Part shown: positions 33,452 to 43,688 of the stretch, in pieces | Position numbering within the stretch: the first letter of the stretch is position 1 | Layout: every line of letters starts with the position of its first letter | The notes under the pieces: generated by a model | Seen by the model: the letters and a program-made list of their open reading frames with translations, nothing else | Databases searched by the model: none | What the model was told of the DNA's origin: nothing | Program-made: the position numbers and the translations under genes | NCBI RefSeq assembly: GCF_004123675.1 | Contig: NZ_CP035417.1 | Location: 3,153,501 to 3,217,500 of the forward strand | From: Leisingera sp. NJS204 | GTDB taxonomy: Bacteria; Pseudomonadota; Alphaproteobacteria; Rhodobacterales; Rhodobacteraceae | Length of the DNA stretch: 64,000 bases | Direction of reading: 5' to 3'

Positions 33452-34549
33452 ATGACCGACGCACCCAAACGCACCCCGCTGTATGACCTGCACGTCGAGC
33501 TTGGCGGCAAGATCGTCGATTTCGCCGGCTGGGAAATGCCGGTGCAGTATCCCATGGGCATCATGGGCGAGCACAAGCAGTGCCGCGAGAAAGCCGCGCT
33601 GTTTGACGTCTCCCACATGGGCCAGGTGATCCTGCGCGGCGACAATGTGGGCGAGAAGCTGGAAACGCTCTGCCCGCAGGCCTTTGCCACCCTGAAAGAA
33701 GGCAAGGCCCGCTACGGCTTTTTCACCAACGAGGACGGCGGCATCATGGACGATCTGATCGTCTCCAACGCCGGTGACCACTACTTTGTTGTGGTGAACG
33801 CGGCGCTGCGCCACCAGGACATCCCGCATATGCAGGCAAACCTGGACGGCGTCGAAGTCACCGAGATCTTCGACCGCGCGCTGGTTGCCGTCCAAGGCCC
33901 CAAGGCCGAGGACGTTGTGGGCGAATTGTGCCCTGCCGCCCGTGAGCTGAAATTCATGGAAACCGTCCTGGCCGATATCGGCGGTGTAGAATGCCGCATC
34001 TCGCGCCTCGGCTACACCGGCGAGGACGGCTACGAGATTTCGATCCCGGACGCGGACGCCATCCGCGTCTCCAAACTGTTCCTGGCCCATGACGACTGCG
34101 AACCCGCAGGCCTTGGCGCCCGCGACAGCCTGCGCCTTGAGGCCGGTCTGTGCCTCTATGGCAACGACATCGACCAGTCGACCTCCCCGATCGAGGCCTC
34201 GCTGAACTGGGCCATCCAAAAGCGCCGCCGCGAAGAAGGCGGCTTCCCCGGTGCCGCCCGCATCCAGAAAGAACTGGCCGAAGGCACGGCCAAAAAGCTG
34301 GTCGGCATCAAGCCCGAAGGCCGGGCACCGGCCCGCCAAGGCGTGGAAGTCCAGAGCGAAGGCGGCGATACTCTTGGTGCCATCACCTCGGGCAGCTTCG
34401 GCCCCACAGTCGGCGGCCCGGTTGCCATGGGCTATGTTGCGGCAGATCATAGCGCAGCAGGCACCAAGGTGAACCTCATCATCCGCGGCAAGGCACAGCC
34501 GGCTGAAATCACCGCCCTGCCCTTCGTCACACAGAACTACAAACGCTAA
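33452..34549 (+). CDS. gcvT: Glycine cleavage system T-protein (aminomethyltransferase)
   Basis: 365 residues. Transfers the methylene group from aminomethyl-lipoyl GcvH to tetrahydrofolate, releasing ammonia. Start RTPLYDLHVELGGKIVDFAGWEMP is characteristic. The folate site contains VQGPKA and FDVSHMGQV, and Asp of YTGEDGYEIS matches the catalytic position. The C-terminal domain (about 280-365) has GRAPARQG and SGSFGPTVGGPVAMGYV. It is the stand-alone enzyme, in contrast to the GcvT-like halves of the FAD oxidoreductases elsewhere in this window. Confidence 0.95.
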   Translation: MTDAPKRTPLYDLHVELGGKIVDFAGWEMPVQYPMGIMGEHKQCREKAALFDVSHMGQVILRGDNVGEKLETLCPQAFATLKEGKARYGFFTNEDGGIMDDLIVSNAGDHYFVVVNAALRHQDIPHMQANLDGVEVTEIFDRALVAVQGPKAEDVVGELCPAARELKFMETVLADIGGVECRISRLGYTGEDGYEISIPDADAIRVSKLFLAHDDCEPAGLGARDSLRLEAGLCLYGNDIDQSTSPIEASLNWAIQKRRREEGGFPGAARIQKELAEGTAKKLVGIKPEGRAPARQGVEVQSEGGDTLGAITSGSFGPTVGGPVAMGYVAADHSAAGTKVNLIIRGKAQPAEITALPFVTQNYKR

Positions 34550-34570
34550 GACATCATCAGGAGAGTCAAA

Positions 34571-34936
34571 ATGGCCACCTATTATTCCGAAGACCATGAA
34601 TGGATCACCGTTGAAGGCGATGTGGCAACCCTGGGCATCACCCAGCACGCCGCCGATCAGCTGGGCGAAGTTGTCTTTGTCGAGCAGCGCGAAACCGGCG
34701 ACGAGTTCGAAAAAGGCGGCGAAATCGGCGTGATCGAGTCGGTGAAAGCAGCCTCCGAAATCTACGCACCGCTGGACGGTGAAGTGGTCGAGGTGAACGA
34801 AACCCTGGCCGACAACCCCGGCGCCCTGAACGAAAGCCCGGAAGGCGACGCCTGGATTTACAAGATCAAGCTGTCGGACGCGTCCCAGCTGGATGATCTG
34901 ATGGATCTGGACGGCTACAAGGCCCTGATTGGCTGA
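34571..34936 (+). CDS. gcvH: Glycine cleavage system H-protein
   Basis: The 121-residue lipoyl carrier that shuttles the aminomethyl group between GcvP, GcvT and LpdA. The lipoylation Lys is in GVIESVKAASEIYAPLDG. Length and sequence are standard. It starts 21 nt after gcvT with CAGGAGAG as ribosome binding site. Confidence 0.95.
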   Translation: MATYYSEDHEWITVEGDVATLGITQHAADQLGEVVFVEQRETGDEFEKGGEIGVIESVKAASEIYAPLDGEVVEVNETLADNPGALNESPEGDAWIYKIKLSDASQLDDLMDLDGYKALIG

Positions 34937-34944
34937 ACCTGTCT

Positions 34945-35009
34945 GCGGATCCGCTGCCGTTTGCGCGGATCCGCCCCTTCTTCTGGCTGAAAATATCCCC
35001 GCCGGAGGC
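34945..35009. repeat. Twin palindromes and a repeat-like block between gcvH and gcvP
   Basis: GCGGATCCGC occurs twice (34945-34954 and 34965-34974), exactly 20 bp apart centre to centre. GAAAATATCCCCGCCGG follows from 34989, leading into an imperfect hairpin (CCGGAG with CTTCCGG). This could be a dispersed intergenic repeat or a regulatory site in the gcv operon. Confidence 0.4.
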
Positions 35010-35054
35010 TCCCGTGCTTCCGGCCGGACGTGACCCTTTCAAAGGAACGCTGCA

Positions 35055-37913
35055 ATGGCCTTCAAACTTACCGATTACGAAGCCTATGACTTTGCCAACC
35101 GGCGCCACATCGGCCCGTCTCCGCAAGAGATGGCCGACATGCTGCAGGTGATCGGCTTTAAAACCCTGGACGAGCTGATCGACGCCACCGTGCCGCCCGC
35201 CATCCGCCAGAAAGAGGCGCTGGACTGGGGCCCGGCAATGACCGAGCGCGACGCCCTCTTCCACATGAAAGAAGTGGCCTCCAAGAACAAGGTTCTGACC
35301 ACGCTGATCGGTCAGGGCTATTACGGCACCACCACTCCGGCGCCGATCTTGCGCAACATCCTGGAAAACCCGGCCTGGTACACCGCCTATACGCCCTATC
35401 AGCCGGAAATTTCCCAGGGCCGGCTCGAGGCGCTCTTGAACTTCCAGACCATGGTCAGCGACCTGACCGGCCTGGACATCGCCAACGCCTCGCTGCTGGA
35501 CGAAGCAACCGCCGCGGCTGAGGCCATGTCGATGGCGCACCGCGGTTCGCGCTCCAAGGCAAACAACGCCGCCTTCTTCGTCGACAAGAACTGCCACCCG
35601 CAGACCGTCGCCGTGATCCAGACCCGCGCCGAGCCTCTGGGCATCGACGTGGTGGTAGCCGATCCCGACGATCTGGATCCGGGCGCGGTCTTCGGCGCCA
35701 TCTTCCAGTACCCCGGCACCTACGGCCATGTGCGCGACTTCACATCGGAAATCGAAGCCATCCACGCGCACAAGGGCATCGCCGTTGTCGCCGCCGACAT
35801 CCTGTCGCTGGCCCTGCTGAAATCGCCGGGTGAAATGGGTGCTGATATTGCCATCGGCTCGACCCAGCGTTTTGGCGTTCCGATGGGTTATGGCGGCCCT
35901 CACGCAGCCTATATGGCGACCACCGACAAGCTGAAGCGCGCCATGCCCGGCCGCATCATCGGTGTGTCCGTCGATGCGCGCGGCAACAAGGCCTACCGCC
36001 TGGCGCTGCAAACCCGCGAACAGCACATCCGCCGCGAAAAGGCCAACTCGAACGTCTGTACCGCACAGGCGCTGCTGGCTGTTATCGCGTCGATGTATGC
36101 TGTCTACCACGGCCCCGACGGCATCAAGGCGATTGCTCAGTCGGTGCACCGCAAGACCTCGCGCCTGGCCGCCGGTCTGGAGGAGAACGGTTTCAAGGTG
36201 GAACCGGAAGTCTTCTTCGACACCATCACTGTCGACGTTGGCCCGCTGCAGAAAACCGTCATGGAAGCAGCCGTTGCCCGCGGCGTCAACCTGCGCAAAG
36301 TGGGTGAAGACCGCATCGGCATCTCGCTGGACGAACAGACCCGCGCCGGGACCATCGAAGCCGTCTGGGCAGCCTTTGGCATCGACAAGAAAGACGATAG
36401 CGTCGCAAACCGCGCCTACCGTCTGCCCGACTATGCGCTGCGCGAAAGCGAGTATCTGACCCACCCGATCTTCCACAAAAACCGGGCCGAAGCAGAAATC
36501 ACCCGCTACATGCGCCGTCTGGCCGACCGCGACCTGGCGCTGGACCGTGCGATGATCCCGCTCGGCTCCTGCACCATGAAGCTCAATGCGACCATCGAAA
36601 TGATCCCGGTCACCTGGCCGGAATTCGGCAACCTACACCCCTTCTGCCCCGAAGATCAGGCGCAGGGCTACCACCAGATGATCGACGATCTGAACGACAA
36701 ACTGTGCCAGATCACCGGCTATGATGCGATCTCCCAGCAGCCGAACTCCGGTGCGCAGGGCGAATACGCGGGCCTTTTGACCATCCGCAACTACCATGCG
36801 TCGCGCGGCGAAGCGCACCGCAACATCTGCCTGATCCCAACCTCCGCACATGGCACCAACCCGGCGTCGGCGCAGATGGTCGGCTACAAGGTGATCCCTG
36901 TGAAAGCGGACGACAGCGGCAACATCGACGTCGCCGACTTCCGTGCCAAGGCAGAGCAGCACAGTGACAACCTTGCGGCTTGCATGATCACCTACCCGTC
37001 GACCCACGGCGTGTTTGAAGAAACCGTTCAGGACGTCTGCCAGATCACCCATGATCACGGCGGCCAGGTCTATATCGACGGCGCCAACATGAATGCCATG
37101 GTGGGCCTTGCCCAGCCGGGCAAGATCGGCGGCGACGTTTCGCACCTGAACCTGCACAAGACCTTCTGCATTCCGCACGGCGGCGGCGGCCCCGGCATGG
37201 GTCCGATCGGCGTCAAGGCGCATTTGACCGAGCACCTGCCGGGCCACCCGGAATACGGCACCGCAGTTGGTCCGGTTTCGGCGGCTCCGTTCGGCTCGCC
37301 TTCGATCCTGCCGGTCAGCTGGGCCTACTGCCTGCTGATGGGCGGTTCGGGCCTGACCCAGGCGACCAAGGTTGCGATCCTGAACGCCAACTACATCGCA
37401 GCGCGCCTCAAGGATGCCTACAAGATCCTCTACACCTCGGAAACGGGCCGTGTGGCGCATGAATGTATCCTGGACACCCGCCCATTGGCTGATGACGGCA
37501 ATGTCACCGTCGACGACGTTGCCAAACGTCTGGTCGATTCGGGCTTCCACGCCCCGACCATGTCCTGGCCGGTGGCTGGCACGCTGATGGTGGAGCCGAC
37601 CGAATCCGAGCCCAAGGACGAGCTGGACCGCTTCTGCGACGCCATGCTGTCGATCCGCTCGGAGGCGCAGGACATCATCGACGGCAAGATCGATCCTGAA
37701 AACAACCCGCTGAAGCACGCGCCGCACACGGTGCGCGACCTGGTGGGTGAATGGGACCGTCCCTACAGCCGCGAACAGGCCTGCTTCCCTCCGGGCAACC
37801 TTGGCGTCGACAAATACTGGCCGGCTGTGAACCGGGTGGACAACGCCTATGGCGACCGCCACCTGATCTGCACCTGCCCGCCGATGTCGGACTACGAAGA
37901 AAACGAAGCCTGA
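35055..37913 (+). CDS. gcvP: Glycine dehydrogenase (decarboxylating), P-protein
   Basis: 952 residues, the full-length single-chain form. Decarboxylates glycine with PLP and loads the aminomethyl group onto GcvH. The PLP-binding Lys702 is in [17 protein letters not shown], and the glycine-rich loop follows directly. Other signatures: FIGSGYYG-like [43 protein letters not shown], and [10 protein letters not shown]. It is the last gcv gene and is followed by a strong hairpin. Confidence 0.96.
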
Positions 37914-37929
37914 TCCTTTCAGGCTCCGC

Positions 37930-37955
37930 GCCCTGCCGGCCCCGCCCGGCAGGGC
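37930..37955 (+). terminator. Hairpin after gcvP
   Basis: GCCCTGCCGG pairs perfectly with CCGGCAGGGC around a 6-nt loop, beginning 16 bases after the gcvP stop. There is no U-run. The AraC-family gene begins about 30 bases later, so some read-through is plausible. Confidence 0.6.
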
Positions 37956-37984
37956 ACCCCCGCATGACCCGCTCAGAGGAGAGA

Positions 37985-38992
37985 ATGATGTCCCGTCTCG
38001 AACCGCTGACCGTGCCAGCTTCCCAGCACTCCGCTGACAGCGCGGCACTCGCCCGCTTCCACGACGTCGAAATCATCCTGCCGCAGGCCGAACCCCCTGC
38101 CGCGGCGCAGATGATTTGCGAAGTTTTCCGCGCCGCCAATGATCTTTTTCCGGACAGCGGCTACCGAACAGCCGTGCGCAACCTCAGCTCGCAAATGCGC
38201 GCCGTGCCCGCGGGTTGGAAACCGCAGACGGTCATTTTCCTGGGTGGTATCTCCAGCCGCTGGCCGCTCAACTCAGGTGAAAAGGCCAGCCTGCAGCGGA
38301 TCTGCCGCCAGGCACAACGCTGCCTGTTTGCCGGCAGCGCCATCTTCCTGCTGGCCGAGTCCGGTCTGCAGGCGGCATTCGAGACTGCGGTGCATTCGAA
38401 TTTCGCCGCCGCCGCAGAGGAAGAGCAGCTGACCTGCGCCCCGGCCGGCACGCTGACCACCGCTGCTGGCCGCATCAACACTGCCGTCAGCAGCTTTGCC
38501 GCCCTGCGCCTGCTGGCCGGTTTCCTGCGCGCCGACCGCGGGCCGTTCATCGCCGATGCGGTCTGCGACTATCTCGGCCTGGCTTTTGGCCCGGCATCGG
38601 AACAATCCAGAATATCGCTGCAACTGCGCCAGACCGCCGGCGGCGACGCGCTGATCGTCAAGATCCTCGACCTGATGCAGCAGAACCTCGAAGAACCGCT
38701 GCTGATCCGCGACATTGCCCAGCAGGCCGGGGTCTCTCCGCGCAAGCTGGAGCGCCGCTTTCAGCAAAAAACCCGCACCAGCCCGCTGGCTGCCTATCGC
38801 AGGCTGCGGATAGAGAAGGCCCGTCAGCTGTTGCTGCACACCACCCTGCCGCTGGCCGAGATCGTCGCCGCCACCGGCTTTGGCTCGCGCAGCAACCTCA
38901 CCGAATGGTTCAAGCGGGAATACAAAACCAGCCCGCTGGCTTTCCGCAAACAATACTACGCAGACAGCCACCCGGCAGGATCCGCCGCCTGA
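37985..38992 (+). CDS. GATase1-like AraC-family regulator (GbdR-like)
   Basis: About 335 residues. The N-terminal ~190 residues are a DJ-1/PfpI-like glutamine-amidotransferase fold (EIILPQAEPPAAAQMICEVFRAAND, then CLFAGSAIFLLAESGL). The C-terminal AraC HTH pair (about 225-320) contains IRDIAQQAGVSPRKLERRFQ and LAEIVAATGFGSRSNLTEWFKREY. GbdR, ArgR and CdhR of Pseudomonas share this architecture and respond to betaine-type compounds or amino acids. The place right after the gcv genes and facing the ABC transporter supports a GbdR-like role, which is inference. Two ATGs (37985, 37988) follow AGAGGAGAG; the second has the better spacing. Confidence 0.82.
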   Translation: MMSRLEPLTVPASQHSADSAALARFHDVEIILPQAEPPAAAQMICEVFRAANDLFPDSGYRTAVRNLSSQMRAVPAGWKPQTVIFLGGISSRWPLNSGEKASLQRICRQAQRCLFAGSAIFLLAESGLQAAFETAVHSNFAAAAEEEQLTCAPAGTLTTAAGRINTAVSSFAALRLLAGFLRADRGPFIADAVCDYLGLAFGPASEQSRISLQLRQTAGGDALIVKILDLMQQNLEEPLLIRDIAQQAGVSPRKLERRFQQKTRTSPLAAYRRLRIEKARQLLLHTTLPLAEIVAATGFGSRSNLTEWFKREYKTSPLAFRKQYYADSHPAGSAA

Positions 38993-39058: not shown

Positions 39059-40351
39059 TCAATTGCCTGATCCGCTGTCCTCGCCGTCATTTGAGAGGGC
39101 GCCGGGGTCAAAGACATTGCCGAAACCGGAGCTGTTGCCCTGCGGCTCCTGCTCGGCCTCCGCGCCGTCCTCTTCATCCCCCGACAGGCTGCCGGGCGCA
39201 AAGACGCCGCCAAAACCCGAGTTATTGCCGGTGCCGGTGGCGGGCGCCGATTGGGCCGGGGCGCCGCCCTGCTCTTCCTGCTGCTGCTGGCGGCGCAGTT
39301 CACGCTGTCGGCGCAGCTCCTGGATGCGCTCTTCAGTCTCCAGGCGCTTTTGCTCCTGAATGTCGGCAATGCACTGCTGCGGGCTGTAGACCGTGGCGGT
39401 CCCCACCACTGCTACCGTTGCACAGGCCACAACAACCAGCGCCACCGCCGCAACATTGGAACTAAGGAACCCGGGCAGCCGCAGCTTGCCGTTTTCCAGT
39501 TCCTCCACCGTCGCCTTCTTACGGGCAGCCGCGACCAGTTCCTTGCGGCGGATGCCGGCCTCGTTCGCCAGCGCTGCAAACACCGTCAGCACCACGATGA
39601 TAAAGGCCAGCGCCGAGATCGCCGGGGTGATGCCATAACGCACCTTCTGCGCCAGTTCGATGGTCAGCGTCGGGTATTCGCCGAAGGTGAAGGTGGTGGT
39701 GTTGTAGTTCTCGAAACTGGCCAGGAACGCCAGCACCGCCGCGGAGGCAATCGCAGGCCGCATGAACGGCAACAGCACTTTGCGGAAGGCCTGGGCATGG
39801 GTGGCGCCCAGATCCAGTGCCGCCTCGGTCAGCGCAATGTCGTAGCGCTGCAGGCGCGCCACCAAGACCAGCATGCAGTAGCTGGCTATGAAGGTCGACT
39901 GGCCGATGATGGTCAGGAACAGGCCGTTCGACAGCCAGCTGTCCGCGCCCAGCCCCAGCATCCGGTTGATCCGGTCCCAGAACACCAGGGTCGAGATACC
40001 AATGACCACGCCGGGGATCAGGATCGGCGCGATGATGATGGTGTAATAGGTCGCGCGCAGCTTAGGCCAGATCTGGGTCAGCATCAGCGCCCCTGCCAGC
40101 CCCATCGACACCGACAGCACAATCGTGCCCGCCCCCACCAGGACAGAGTTCCAGATCCCGTTCAAAATCCGTTCGTCCTGGAACAGGGCCGAGAACCATT
40201 CAAAAGTCAGGCACTCCCAGGGAGTCATCCGCGGAAACGAAGGCGAGTTGAAGGCAGTCGCCGACATGATCACCAGCGGCCCCAGCAGGTAGGCAAAGAA
40301 GATCGCCAGATAGACCCAGAGGCTTATGCGCATAAAGGAGAAGTTCTTCAT
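39059..40351 (-). CDS. PotC-like ABC transporter permease with a C-terminal extension
   Basis: 430 residues. The first ~270 are a normal PotC-type permease with six helices and the EAA loop EAALDLGATHAQAFRKVLLP. The extra ~160 residues are unusual: an additional membrane helix (about 298-321), a charged Gln/Arg/Glu coiled coil (about 328-360) and two copies of a motif NxSGFGxVFxPGxLSxD, at about 377 and 407, each ending in an acidic run. I know no characterised PotC with this tail. The start overlaps the upstream permease stop (ATGA). Transport partner of the next three genes; substrate uncertain (polyamine family, possibly a methylated amine here). Confidence 0.87.
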   Translation of the reverse strand: MKNFSFMRISLWVYLAIFFAYLLGPLVIMSATAFNSPSFPRMTPWECLTFEWFSALFQDERILNGIWNSVLVGAGTIVLSVSMGLAGALMLTQIWPKLRATYYTIIIAPILIPGVVIGISTLVFWDRINRMLGLGADSWLSNGLFLTIIGQSTFIASYCMLVLVARLQRYDIALTEAALDLGATHAQAFRKVLLPFMRPAIASAAVLAFLASFENYNTTTFTFGEYPTLTIELAQKVRYGITPAISALAFIIVVLTVFAALANEAGIRRKELVAAARKKATVEELENGKLRLPGFLSSNVAAVALVVVACATVAVVGTATVYSPQQCIADIQEQKRLETEERIQELRRQRELRRQQQQEEQGGAPAQSAPATGTGNNSGFGGVFAPGSLSGDEEDGAEAEQEPQGNSSGFGNVFDPGALSNDGEDSGSGN

Positions 40352-41268
40352 TTGCCGATATCCCCCATGTTGACCTTGAACAGCCGCATGATGGCCAGCA
40401 CCAGCAGGATACAGGTGACCAGCAGCACCACCGCGTAAGCCGCGCCCTGCGGCCAGTCGGAGTTGTCATTGAACTGCTGATAGATCAGCTGGGTGAACCA
40501 CAAGGAAGACGGTCCGCCAAGGATCTGCGGTGCCGCCAGCGCGCCTGCCGACAGCATGAACACCATGGTGCAGCCCGAGGAAATACCCGGTTTAGCGTAG
40601 GGAATGACCACCCGCTGGTGGATCTTGGTCCAACTGGCGCCCATATCCCGCGCCGCCTCGATCTGATTGCGGTCCAGGCTTTCGATCACGTTGTAGATCG
40701 GGAAGATCATCAAGAGGATGTAGGCATAGCCCAAACCGGCATAGAGCGCGATATCATTGCGGATAAAGTCAAACGGGGTGTCGAATACCCCCAGCCCCAC
40801 CAGCATGTTATTAAGCACGCCGGTCTCGCCGAAGATGATGCGCAGCGCAAAGGCGCGCAGGATCTCGTTGATCCAGTAAGGGATGATCAGCATCAGTGCG
40901 AAGATGCGGATGTGATTGCCCTTGGTCTGGGCCAGATAATAGGCGATCGGGTAGCACAGGATCAGGTTGAAGATGGTGACGCAGACCGCTGCCACCAGGG
41001 TGCGGAAGAAGACATTGAGGTCGACAGCGTTGTAGCTCTGGCTGCCGCCTTCCGGTCCGAACACCAGATATTTGTAGTTTTCGACCGTATAGACGTCTTT
41101 GGGGCCGCCGATCTCTGGCGGCGGCAGGTTGGGACGGAATGAGAAGTCGAGCATCGATAGCTGCGGCAGAATAATCAGGCCGATGGTCCAGAACAGGACC
41201 AGGCCCAGCATCAGACTGCCCATGCCGAAACCGTTGCGTTTGAAGAACTCCCTCAGGAAGCTTGGCAT
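40348..41268 (-). CDS. PotB-like ABC transporter permease
   Basis: 306 residues with six predicted helices and the permease EAA loop EAARDMGASWTKIHQRVVIP. The long periplasmic segment after TM1 (DFSFRPNLPPPEIGGPKDVYTVENYKYL) is typical of the PotB family. The ATG at 41268 was chosen over earlier in-frame starts because it gives the expected MPSFLREFF...GSLMLGLVLFW beginning and lies 13 nt after the ATPase stop. Confidence 0.9.
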   Translation of the reverse strand: MPSFLREFFKRNGFGMGSLMLGLVLFWTIGLIILPQLSMLDFSFRPNLPPPEIGGPKDVYTVENYKYLVFGPEGGSQSYNAVDLNVFFRTLVAAVCVTIFNLILCYPIAYYLAQTKGNHIRIFALMLIIPYWINEILRAFALRIIFGETGVLNNMLVGLGVFDTPFDFIRNDIALYAGLGYAYILLMIFPIYNVIESLDRNQIEAARDMGASWTKIHQRVVIPYAKPGISSGCTMVFMLSAGALAAPQILGGPSSLWFTQLIYQQFNDNSDWPQGAAYAVVLLVTCILLVLAIMRLFKVNMGDIGK

Positions 41269-41281
41269 GACATGGGCCTCC

Positions 41282-42394
41282 TCATTCCGCGGCCAGCTCA
41301 CCGGCGGGAACACAGACGGCGTTTTTCGTCTCGTATTCCAGGGTGATGTTTTGGCCGGTGTGGTCATCAAAGGACTGACCCAGGTTGGGGATTGAGACCT
41401 TCAGCTCCTTGCCGCCGTCGCCTTCCATGAAGATGTTGAAGCTATTGCCCTCGAACTCCTCGTGGTTGACACGTGCGGTCACGAAATGGTCGCCCGCCGC
41501 GCCCTGGGATGCCAGCGCAAAGGCCTCGGGACGGATGAACATCATCGCCTCGTCGCCTTCTTTCATGCGGCCCTGGTTGGCGGTGGAAACCCGCGCCACC
41601 AGATCGCCTGACCGGTTGGTGGCGATCAAGGCCTCGTCGCCCATCACCCGCTTCACCTTGCCGCGGAAGACGTTGTTTTCGCCCACGAAAGACGCCGCAA
41701 AGGCGGTGGCCGGATCGTTGTAGATGGTTTTGCCATCACCGATCTGGTCAATCACCCCCGCCTTCATCACCGCGATATTGTCGGACATGGTCAGCGCCTC
41801 GCCCTGATCGTGGGTGATGTAGATAAAGGTGATGCCGACCCGCTGCTGAATCTCGCGCAGCTCGGTGCGCATATGCTGGCGTAGCTTCAGGTCCAGCGCC
41901 GACAGCGGTTCATCAAGCAGCAGCACATCGGGTTCGGCGCACAAGGCGCGCGCAATGGCCACCCGCTGCCGCTGGCCGCCAGACAGTTCGGAGGGCAGTT
42001 TGTCGCCCTGTCCCGGCAGCGCGATCATGTCCAAAAGCTCATCCGCGCGCTTGCGCCGCTCCCTGGCCGAGGCGCCCTTGATCTCCATGGAAAACGTGAT
42101 GTTCTCCCAGACCTTCATCAGCGGGAACAGCGCCAGATTCTGAAAGATCAGCGCGGTCGGGCGCTTGTTCGGCCCGATCCCCTTCATGTTATTGCCGCCA
42201 ATCAGCACCCGGCCCTCGCTTGGCTCAAGAAAGCCTGAGACCGCCCGCAGGATGGTGGTTTTGCCGCAGCCCGAGGGCCCCAGAAAGGAGAAAAAATCCC
42301 CTCCATTGATGTTCACATTGGCATCGCGCACGGCGACAAAGTCACCGAACCGGATCCAAAGATTCTCGAGATCAACGCCGACCCCAGCACTCAT
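41282..42394 (-). CDS. PotA-like ABC transporter ATPase
   Basis: 370 residues. Walker A GPSGCGKTT, Q-loop FQNLALFP, signature LSGGQRQRVAIARAL, Walker B VLLLDEPLSALD and switch His in THDQGEA are all present. A C-terminal TOBE domain (about 290-365) follows, as in PotA/FbpC-type importers. The ATG at 42394 gives the normal N-terminus; the upstream in-frame residues are not family-like. It energises the two permeases downstream. Confidence 0.92.
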   Translation of the reverse strand: MSAGVGVDLENLWIRFGDFVAVRDANVNINGGDFFSFLGPSGCGKTTILRAVSGFLEPSEGRVLIGGNNMKGIGPNKRPTALIFQNLALFPLMKVWENITFSMEIKGASARERRKRADELLDMIALPGQGDKLPSELSGGQRQRVAIARALCAEPDVLLLDEPLSALDLKLRQHMRTELREIQQRVGITFIYITHDQGEALTMSDNIAVMKAGVIDQIGDGKTIYNDPATAFAASFVGENNVFRGKVKRVMGDEALIATNRSGDLVARVSTANQGRMKEGDEAMMFIRPEAFALASQGAAGDHFVTARVNHEEFEGNSFNIFMEGDGGKELKVSIPNLGQSFDDHTGQNITLEYETKNAVCVPAGELAAE

Positions 42395-42563: not shown

Positions 42564-43688
42564 TTAGGCGCTTTTGAACTTGTTGACAAACTCGGTCCGC
42601 ACGTCCGCATACCACGGCGCCTCGGCCGGCCATGGGTTCAGATTGGCCAGCGAGTTGCCCGGATAGGCTTCGGCAAAGTTCTTTTTGTAGACATCGCCCG
42701 AGTGGCTGTCGGCGCCCAGAACCGGCGAGTTGTAGCCATGGCTGTCGATTGCTTTGCCTGCCGGCTCCTGCTCGTAAGCGTAAGAGACAAAGGCATAAAC
42801 CTGCTCTTCGTTCTTGGCGCCAACCGGCATCGAGATGCCGTCGACCCAAGCCATCGAGCCTTCGACCGGTGCCTGATAGTGCACAGGTTCGCCAGCAGAC
42901 TTAAGCGCCAGCGGCGGGCCGTCCCAGGTCTGGCCGACCACCACGCCCTCGTTCAGCAGGCCGTTCTTTTGGGTGTCCGCATCGTTCCAGATCAGTTTGA
43001 TCCGGTTCTTGCGCGCCACGCACCAATCGGTGACCTGGCCCCAGACCTTACGCATGGTTTCCTCGTCGTCGTAAGCCGCCCAGATTGAGCCTGGCTCCAT
43101 CTCGCCCGAGGCTTCCATGTAAAGACCCGCGCCCAGCATCATCGAATGCGCCCGGCCCATGGTCTTGCCGGCATTTTCTTCCGACCAGACATCGCCATAA
43201 GACGGCGCGTCACCGGCCGGCAGCCATTTGTCGGTACGGTAGGCAATGCCTTCGGTGCCCCAGATATGCGGCAGCCAATGCACGCCCGAACCGCCAAAGT
43301 TCCAGGCGTCGGTGCCGATCTTGGCCATCGCAGGGTTCACCGCGTCAATGTTGACCTTGTTCATGTCGAACGGCTTTAGCAGTTCCAGCGGCCCCCACTG
43401 CAGCGAGCGGTTGTTGGTCGGCGAAACGATGTCGAAACCCTGGCCCTTGGTGGCCTTCATCTTGTTGATGATTTCTTCGTTGGAACCGATACCGGTGTAA
43501 TTCACCTTGATGCCGGTCTTGGCCTCGAAACCCGCGATGAATTCGGGCGGCAGATAGTCCGACCACATCAGAATGTTCACTTCGCCGGAAGACGCCAGCG
43601 CGCTTTTTGAGTAAAGCGGCGCCGCCAGTGCAGCAGCACCTGCGCTTTTCAGCACCGTGCGGCGGCTGATTGAAGTCTTTGCTGTCAT
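42564..43688 (-). CDS. PotD-like periplasmic substrate-binding protein
   Basis: 374 residues. The N-terminus SRRTVLKSAGAAALAAPLYSK is a Tat-type signal (twin Arg), and cleavage is likely after ALAS. The mature part is a polyamine-type binding protein (VNILMWSDYLPPEFIAGFEA, KTGIKVNYTGIGSNEEIINKMKA, IWGTEGIAYRTDKW). First gene of the four-gene transport operon. The nearby MttB/DMGDH-like enzymes and LysR suggest a quaternary or methylated amine, but polyamine cannot be excluded. Confidence 0.9.
   Translation of the reverse strand: MTAKTSISRRTVLKSAGAAALAAPLYSKSALASSGEVNILMWSDYLPPEFIAGFEAKTGIKVNYTGIGSNEEIINKMKATKGQGFDIVSPTNNRSLQWGPLELLKPFDMNKVNIDAVNPAMAKIGTDAWNFGGSGVHWLPHIWGTEGIAYRTDKWLPAGDAPSYGDVWSEENAGKTMGRAHSMMLGAGLYMEASGEMEPGSIWAAYDDEETMRKVWGQVTDWCVARKNRIKLIWNDADTQKNGLLNEGVVVGQTWDGPPLALKSAGEPVHYQAPVEGSMAWVDGISMPVGAKNEEQVYAFVSYAYEQEPAGKAIDSHGYNSPVLGADSHSGDVYKKNFAEAYPGNSLANLNPWPAEAPWYADVRTEFVNKFKSA

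Follow-up and report, generated by a model that had tools for sequence, protein, structure and literature searches.

The binding protein of many ABC importers is a component of its own, soluble or lipid-anchored; that of OpuA is covalently attached (excerpts of PMC11065425). According to the same excerpts, an anchoring helix and a linker, the latter 11 residues long and unconserved, connect the OpuA binding domain to the permease. The Escherichia coli permease PotC is described in excerpts of PMC11414716 as having six helices and periplasmic loops P1 to P3, with P3 lying between TM5 and TM6; two acidic residues, D108 and D198, contact spermidine. In R. pomeroyi, a polyamine system (SPO3466-3469) was demonstrated by means of mutants (excerpts of PMC10130141).

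Here we describe a PotC-type permease of Leisingera sp. NJS204 that extends well beyond this six-helix core. The window, meaning the whole stretch of DNA that was analysed, comprises 64,000 nucleotides (NZ_CP035417.1, positions 3,153,501 to 3,217,500 of the forward strand). We propose, with a probability of roughly 0.4, that the extension forms an arm reaching into the periplasm from one of a type I ABC importer's permease subunits, and that it holds a partner.

A tailed permease at the end of a four-gene operon

The tailed permease gene is the last of four, preceded by genes for a binding protein, an ATPase and a PotB-type permease (Table 1), the last of which it overlaps by 4 bases. Pfam BPD_transp_1 (PF00528) covers residues 92-261 of the permease and passes its gathering score (44.8 versus 26.4 bits), and alignment to E. 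coli PotC (8y5f) is limited to residues 14-268. About 160 of the 430 residues thus lie past the normal permease end, as a sequence-only reading of the window had stated. Comparisons used two sets of relatives: 28 diverse tailed proteins (the window protein and 27 relatives) and 80 named loci, which are the best 80 of 525 candidates and therefore biased toward close relatives. All four operon genes reside in one locus in 28/28 tailed systems compared. Every one of the 80 named loci has PotA- and PotB-type genes, and 78 have the binding protein gene; the contigs of the two others (L168 and L169) begin just upstream. An arginine pair occurs in the binding-protein signal of all 28 tailed systems, and the Pfam TAT_signal match to the window's binding protein is below its cut-off. 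Converging on the operon are gcvT-gcvH-gcvP and an AraC-type regulator gene (33452-38992), the best NCBIfam matches of the latter being FtrA and GbdR, both under cut-off. gcvP and the AraC gene adjoin the operon in 11 of the 80 named loci.

Table 1. Features of the tailed permease gene and its operon (window coordinates)
Feature	Coordinates	Strand	Basis
PotC-type permease gene with C-terminal arm	39059..40351	(-)	ORF, 430 aa
Permease core, residues 1-268	39548..40351	(-)	six helices from E. coli PotC alignment
Cys47, periplasmic loop 1	40211..40213	(-)	28/28 tailed versus 0/16 tail-less proteins
Lys/Arg-rich linker, residues 269-299, predicted cytoplasmic	39455..39547	(-)	3-12 K+R in loop 6-7, n=28
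Added seventh transmembrane helix, residues 300-321 (predicted)	39389..39454	(-)	AF2 model and hydropathy
Cys327 in YSPxQC	39371..39373	(-)	Cys here in 28/28 diverse tails, 78/78 complete named loci
Charged Glu/Arg/Gln helix, residues 324-361, without heptad (predicted)	39269..39382	(-)	AF2 model and heptad test
Motif copy 1, FGGVFAPGSL, residues 380-389	39185..39214	(-)	pattern search
Motif copy 2, FGNVFDPGAL, residues 410-419	39095..39124	(-)	pattern search
Partner permease (PotB-type)	40348..41268	(-)	start set at MPSFL by comparison
ATPase (PotA-type)	41282..42394	(-)	start set at MSAGV by comparison
Periplasmic binding protein, twin-arginine-like signal, proposed arm partner	42564..43688	(-)	

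The tail is in frame, selected and present in eight families

The tail is a genuine, in-frame part of the permease and is under purifying selection. The sequence-only reading had named absence from close orthologues and artificial fusion by a frameshift as grounds for abandoning it, and neither was found. Twenty of 21 Leisingera genomes carry a tailed permease without an inner stop (the G303 copy ends at residue 392, at a contig end, and G304 gave no match), and the tail is present in 78/78 complete named loci. A frameshift fusion is therefore ruled out. Two named loci fell outside the complete set: L113 extends past the end of its contig, while for L115, left uncounted, the tail is visible in another frame. 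The named loci span Leisingera, Phaeobacter, Pseudophaeobacter, Ruegeria, Roseovarius, Aliiroseovarius, Defluviimonas and other genera. All 78 complete ones retain both cysteines discussed below together with at least one FxPxx[LI] motif, with one copy in 1 tail, two in 67 and three or more in 10. Comparison with 20 relatives gave pN/pS values of 0.10 for the core, 0.21 for the loop and TM7, 0.24 for the charged helix, 0.26 for the motifs and 0.38 for the linkers, and at the protein level every tail part changes faster than the core.

A family scan identified matches in 29 of 295 genomes at E <= 1e-60; among the 30 family matches listed, 11 are tailed and 19 tail-less. With a profile of the tail (A1), 41 of 390 genomes matched across the order; all belong to the window's own family, and the match in G485 is weak. 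Across the class 18 of 385 matched, 13 of these 18 being true permeases with both cysteines and the motif or a variant; L180 and L185 are other proteins, and L181, L182 and L184, which have short frames, stand outside the true-permease count. The phylum scan returned 5 of 398 genomes, all in Alphaproteobacteria. True tailed permeases thus occur in eight families of the class (labelled f1, f2, f40, f41, f42, f109, f135 and f156), and the motif, which the sequence-only reading had proposed to seek in other roseobacter proteins, is indeed found there but is not restricted to them. In a tree built from the cores of 52 permeases, 28 with the tail and 24 without it, the tail has a single origin and no loss among the rows, with a support of 94/85 that is just below the starred level. 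A search of the same genome revealed no credible further tail copies (three other matches at E values up to 10, the best at 0.064), and a search of viral contigs found no relative.

Several individual loci deserve mention. Contig JAHVJD010000004.1 (L108), titled Nocardioides marinus DP1N28-1, encodes an 88% identical tailed permease with adjoining gcv genes, and its title looks mislabelled. In Leisingera caerulea M561 (L219, NZ_CP081067.1) the operon resides on a 250 kb plasmid and is flanked over 4 kb on each side by genes other than gcvTHP. Two tailed copies are present in Roseobacter sp. SK209-2-6 (L114 and L115) and two also in genome G374, which may be the same organism.

Anatomy of the tail

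The anatomy of the arm is well supported. One extra hydrophobic helix, which the sequence-only reading had also recognized, is predicted by the AF2 model and by hydropathy (the best 19 residues average 2.57 on the Kyte-Doolittle scale). Overall confidence in this model is poor (mean pLDDT 54, pTM 0.25), and we drew on it for secondary structure alone. Its most confident part is residues 331-360, within the charged helix, while residues 362-430 have pLDDT < 50 and no folded domain is predicted there. The sequence-only reading had described the charged segment as a Gln-rich coiled coil. A charged helix rich in Gln, Arg and Glu is indeed predicted, but a classical coiled coil is rejected: by a home-made test, used instead of a coiled-coil program, the best register placed hydrophobic residues at a/d with a frequency of 0.25 in the 28 diverse proteins and 0.24 in 79 named ones, versus 0.18 overall. 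Hydrophobic positions of this helix fall at +1, +4, +10, +16 and +19 from the cysteine.

Beyond the helix are the two motif copies that the sequence-only reading had reported. The pattern FGx[VIA]FxPxxL occurs at these two sites only in all six frames of the window. Across the 28 tails the shorter FxPxxL was observed 53 times versus 0.42 expected from shuffling each tail. At least one copy occurs in 25/28 tails, mostly two or three, and the three tails without it hold the variants FGGAFGGDAL, FNNIFGDPNL and FGDIFGDPDL. Composition varies widely, from acidic (25% D+E) to Pro/Ala-rich (54% P+A), and the chain continues for 35-114 residues past the first 30 after the cysteine. An acidic tail acting as a polyamine-attracting brush is rejected, given that net charge runs from -15 to +1.

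The window tail alone had no match in Pfam or NCBIfam, and a scan of 13 tails gave isolated weak matches to one Pfam and three NCBIfam families, each seen in one or two of the tails. Comparison of the tail profile with PDB chains revealed no credible relative (best E 0.17), and among the literature matches listed no title or abstract describes such a permease tail. The accessory arm is undescribed in the family libraries searched. Collectively, the tail, helix and motifs of the sequence-only reading are upheld without the coiled coil, and its view that the tail lies outside known transport chemistry is supported.

Likely periplasmic location and a conserved cysteine pair

A six-helix core with a cytoplasmic C terminus, followed by one more helix, places the tail outside. 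Everything after residue ~322 is therefore likely to be periplasmic, a strong inference from sequence. Across the 28 proteins, loop 6-7 (22-42 residues) contains 3-12 Lys/Arg versus 0-3 in the 15 residues following TM7. The charged helix, with 8 Lys/Arg among 38 residues, is a poor fit to a simple positive-inside rule.

Cys47 and Cys327 are both present in 28/28 tailed proteins, and Cys47 in 0/16 tail-less proteins; in an overlapping set Cys47 occurs in 29/29 tailed versus 0/19 tail-less proteins. E. coli PotC has Gly at the Cys47 position. A Cys47-Cys327 disulfide is plausible, as a moderate inference from this pattern, and the poor AF2 model yields no distance between the two residues. Because the tail arose once, the link between cysteine and tail is a single event kept since then, without repeated co-gain, and ten further positions in the core and 40 further ones in the binding protein mark the same clade. 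The binding protein has a single cysteine, Cys223 (43020-43022), present in 27/28 tailed systems versus 0/16 tail-less ones. A disulfide between the permease and Cys223 is less likely, since one system (L192) has no cysteine in its binding protein and retains both permease cysteines, making a bond within the permease the simpler reading.

A distantly Pot-like operon

The label 'Pot' denotes homology only, and by sequence the operon is distantly Pot-like. The permease misses the NCBIfam cut-offs for PotC (114.3 of 326 bits) and PotI (99.4 of 476), and the ATPase is below that of TIGR01187 potA (307.7 of 355.6). A second system in the same genome (L222), nearer to PotFGHI, has an ATPase that passes this cut-off (402.1 versus 355.6) and is itself still under those for PotF (440.6 of 636) and PotI (330.8 of 476). 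PotC D108 aligns to G114 and D198 to E214, the latter still acidic, and both window residues are constant in 44/44 proteins. Binding-protein residues R179 and S182 are likewise constant in 44/44, tailed and tail-less alike; they align to PotD D168 and E171, which we take to have amine-binding roles. W42, W255, W281 and D283 of the binding protein, the last presumably equivalent to PotD D257, are kept in 28/28 tailed systems. A zwitterion and a polyamine are both possible substrate candidates. Operon neighbours vary by group, so no substrate is claimed, and a 'Pot' annotation of this operon alone does not mean polyamine uptake. As a possible substrate clue, similar enzyme-like genes (sulfatase-like by eye) lie on opposite sides of the operon in Aliiroseovarius/Roseovarius loci (L131:650-2203 and L150:7329-8858).

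Proposed function of the arm

In the arrangement we favour, the seventh helix would take the chain across to the periplasmic side, where a probable disulfide from Cys327 to Cys47 in loop 1 would anchor the base of the arm. The charged helix would hold the arm away from the membrane, and the disordered end would display mostly two or three FxPxxL-centred peptides at which a partner could be held. Short conserved peptides within freer linkers suggest binding, and we have moderate confidence that the tail motifs bind as peptides. The operon's own soluble binding protein is our best guess for the partner, a weak one made from its function and by analogy with OpuA; reversible peptide contact would then provide a tethered supply. 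More specifically, we offer as a tentative idea a device spread among Alphaproteobacteria that would convert an importer with a free binding protein into a tethered one: at the mouth of the permease, a disulfide-fixed periplasmic arm would use its repeated FxPxxL peptides to hold the cognate binding protein, or else an outer-membrane channel, in a reversible manner. Beyond what the core explains, tail distances correlated with binding-protein distances (partial r 0.64 on 28 rows), with corresponding values of 0.33 for PotB and 0.00 for PotA. The tail value dropped to 0.31 when L193 and L195 were left out and to 0.02 when four divergent rows were; PotB and the binding protein gave 0.52-0.64 in the same sets. 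Because the correlation is lost without those four rows, co-evolution names no partner.

A related explanation, which agrees with the failure of co-evolution to point to the binding protein, is that the arm is periplasmic and the motifs bind another target, such as a porin or lipoprotein of the outer membrane, peptidoglycan, or a protease or chaperone, thereby placing the importer in the envelope. Pro/Ala-rich tails, of which there are some, resemble periplasm-spanning linkers, and the arm is long (a 38-residue helix in the window protein and 35-114 residues further in the 28 proteins). No widely conserved gene stands beside the four-gene operon within 6 kb in the 80 named loci, however, where the commonest real cluster of neighbours reaches 27, gcvP 11 and LysR 1, though such a target might be encoded elsewhere. 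We regard this explanation as somewhat less likely than the arrangement we favour. The sequence-only reading had suggested that the tail binds a regulator or scaffold. Its look of a binding element agrees with the first half of that idea; a cytoplasmic tail that engages the ATPase or a DNA-binding regulator is very improbable, as helix number, the charge of loop 6-7 and the cysteine pair all indicate the outward side, even though the charged helix is Arg/Glu-rich and periplasmic topology is itself a prediction.

Two further explanations we hold to be improbable to the same degree. FG-containing motifs could self-associate and so gather several transporters into membrane clusters, which would suit aromatic-Gly motifs repeated, mostly in 2 or 3 copies, along a disordered chain; yet FxPxxL is the most widely kept part, resembles a specific ligand and persists without FG in L194 and L196. 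Alternatively, the tail might chiefly aid folding or stability, with helix 7 and the disulfide bracing the permease and the disordered end dispensable. TM7, the cysteine and the helix do vary less than the linkers, and L159 retains a single motif, but so do the motifs vary less than their linkers, and at least one is present in all 78/78 complete named tails. Holding of a partner by a periplasmic arm remains our preferred account. If true, a reversible peptide hold on a Gram-negative permease would be another way of keeping a binding protein, in bacteria of which many are marine, and the arm supplies a defined periplasmic peptide motif open to testing.

Comparison with known systems

E. coli PotC and PotI (8y5f and relatives) share the core (E 2.7e-23, residues 14-268) and the same kind of gene set with the window operon; unlike the window permease, PotC has no tail and has Gly at the Cys47 position. 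A mollicute fusion of permease and binding protein (NF043073, MMSYN1_0195) is represented by a 1021-position model, one part of which matches permease residues 13-265 and another a segment of the binding protein encoded in the window, each scoring far below cut-off. In contrast to that fusion, the window permease is unfused and its tail has no folded domain. By analogy, the closest known design is OpuA, at least as the excerpts of PMC11065425 portray it: in both, an extra helix, here the predicted TM7, brings the permease chain outside and a flexible segment follows. OpuA then carries its binding domain on that same chain, whereas the tailed permease would present a disordered peptide array, with the binding protein encoded by a separate gene.
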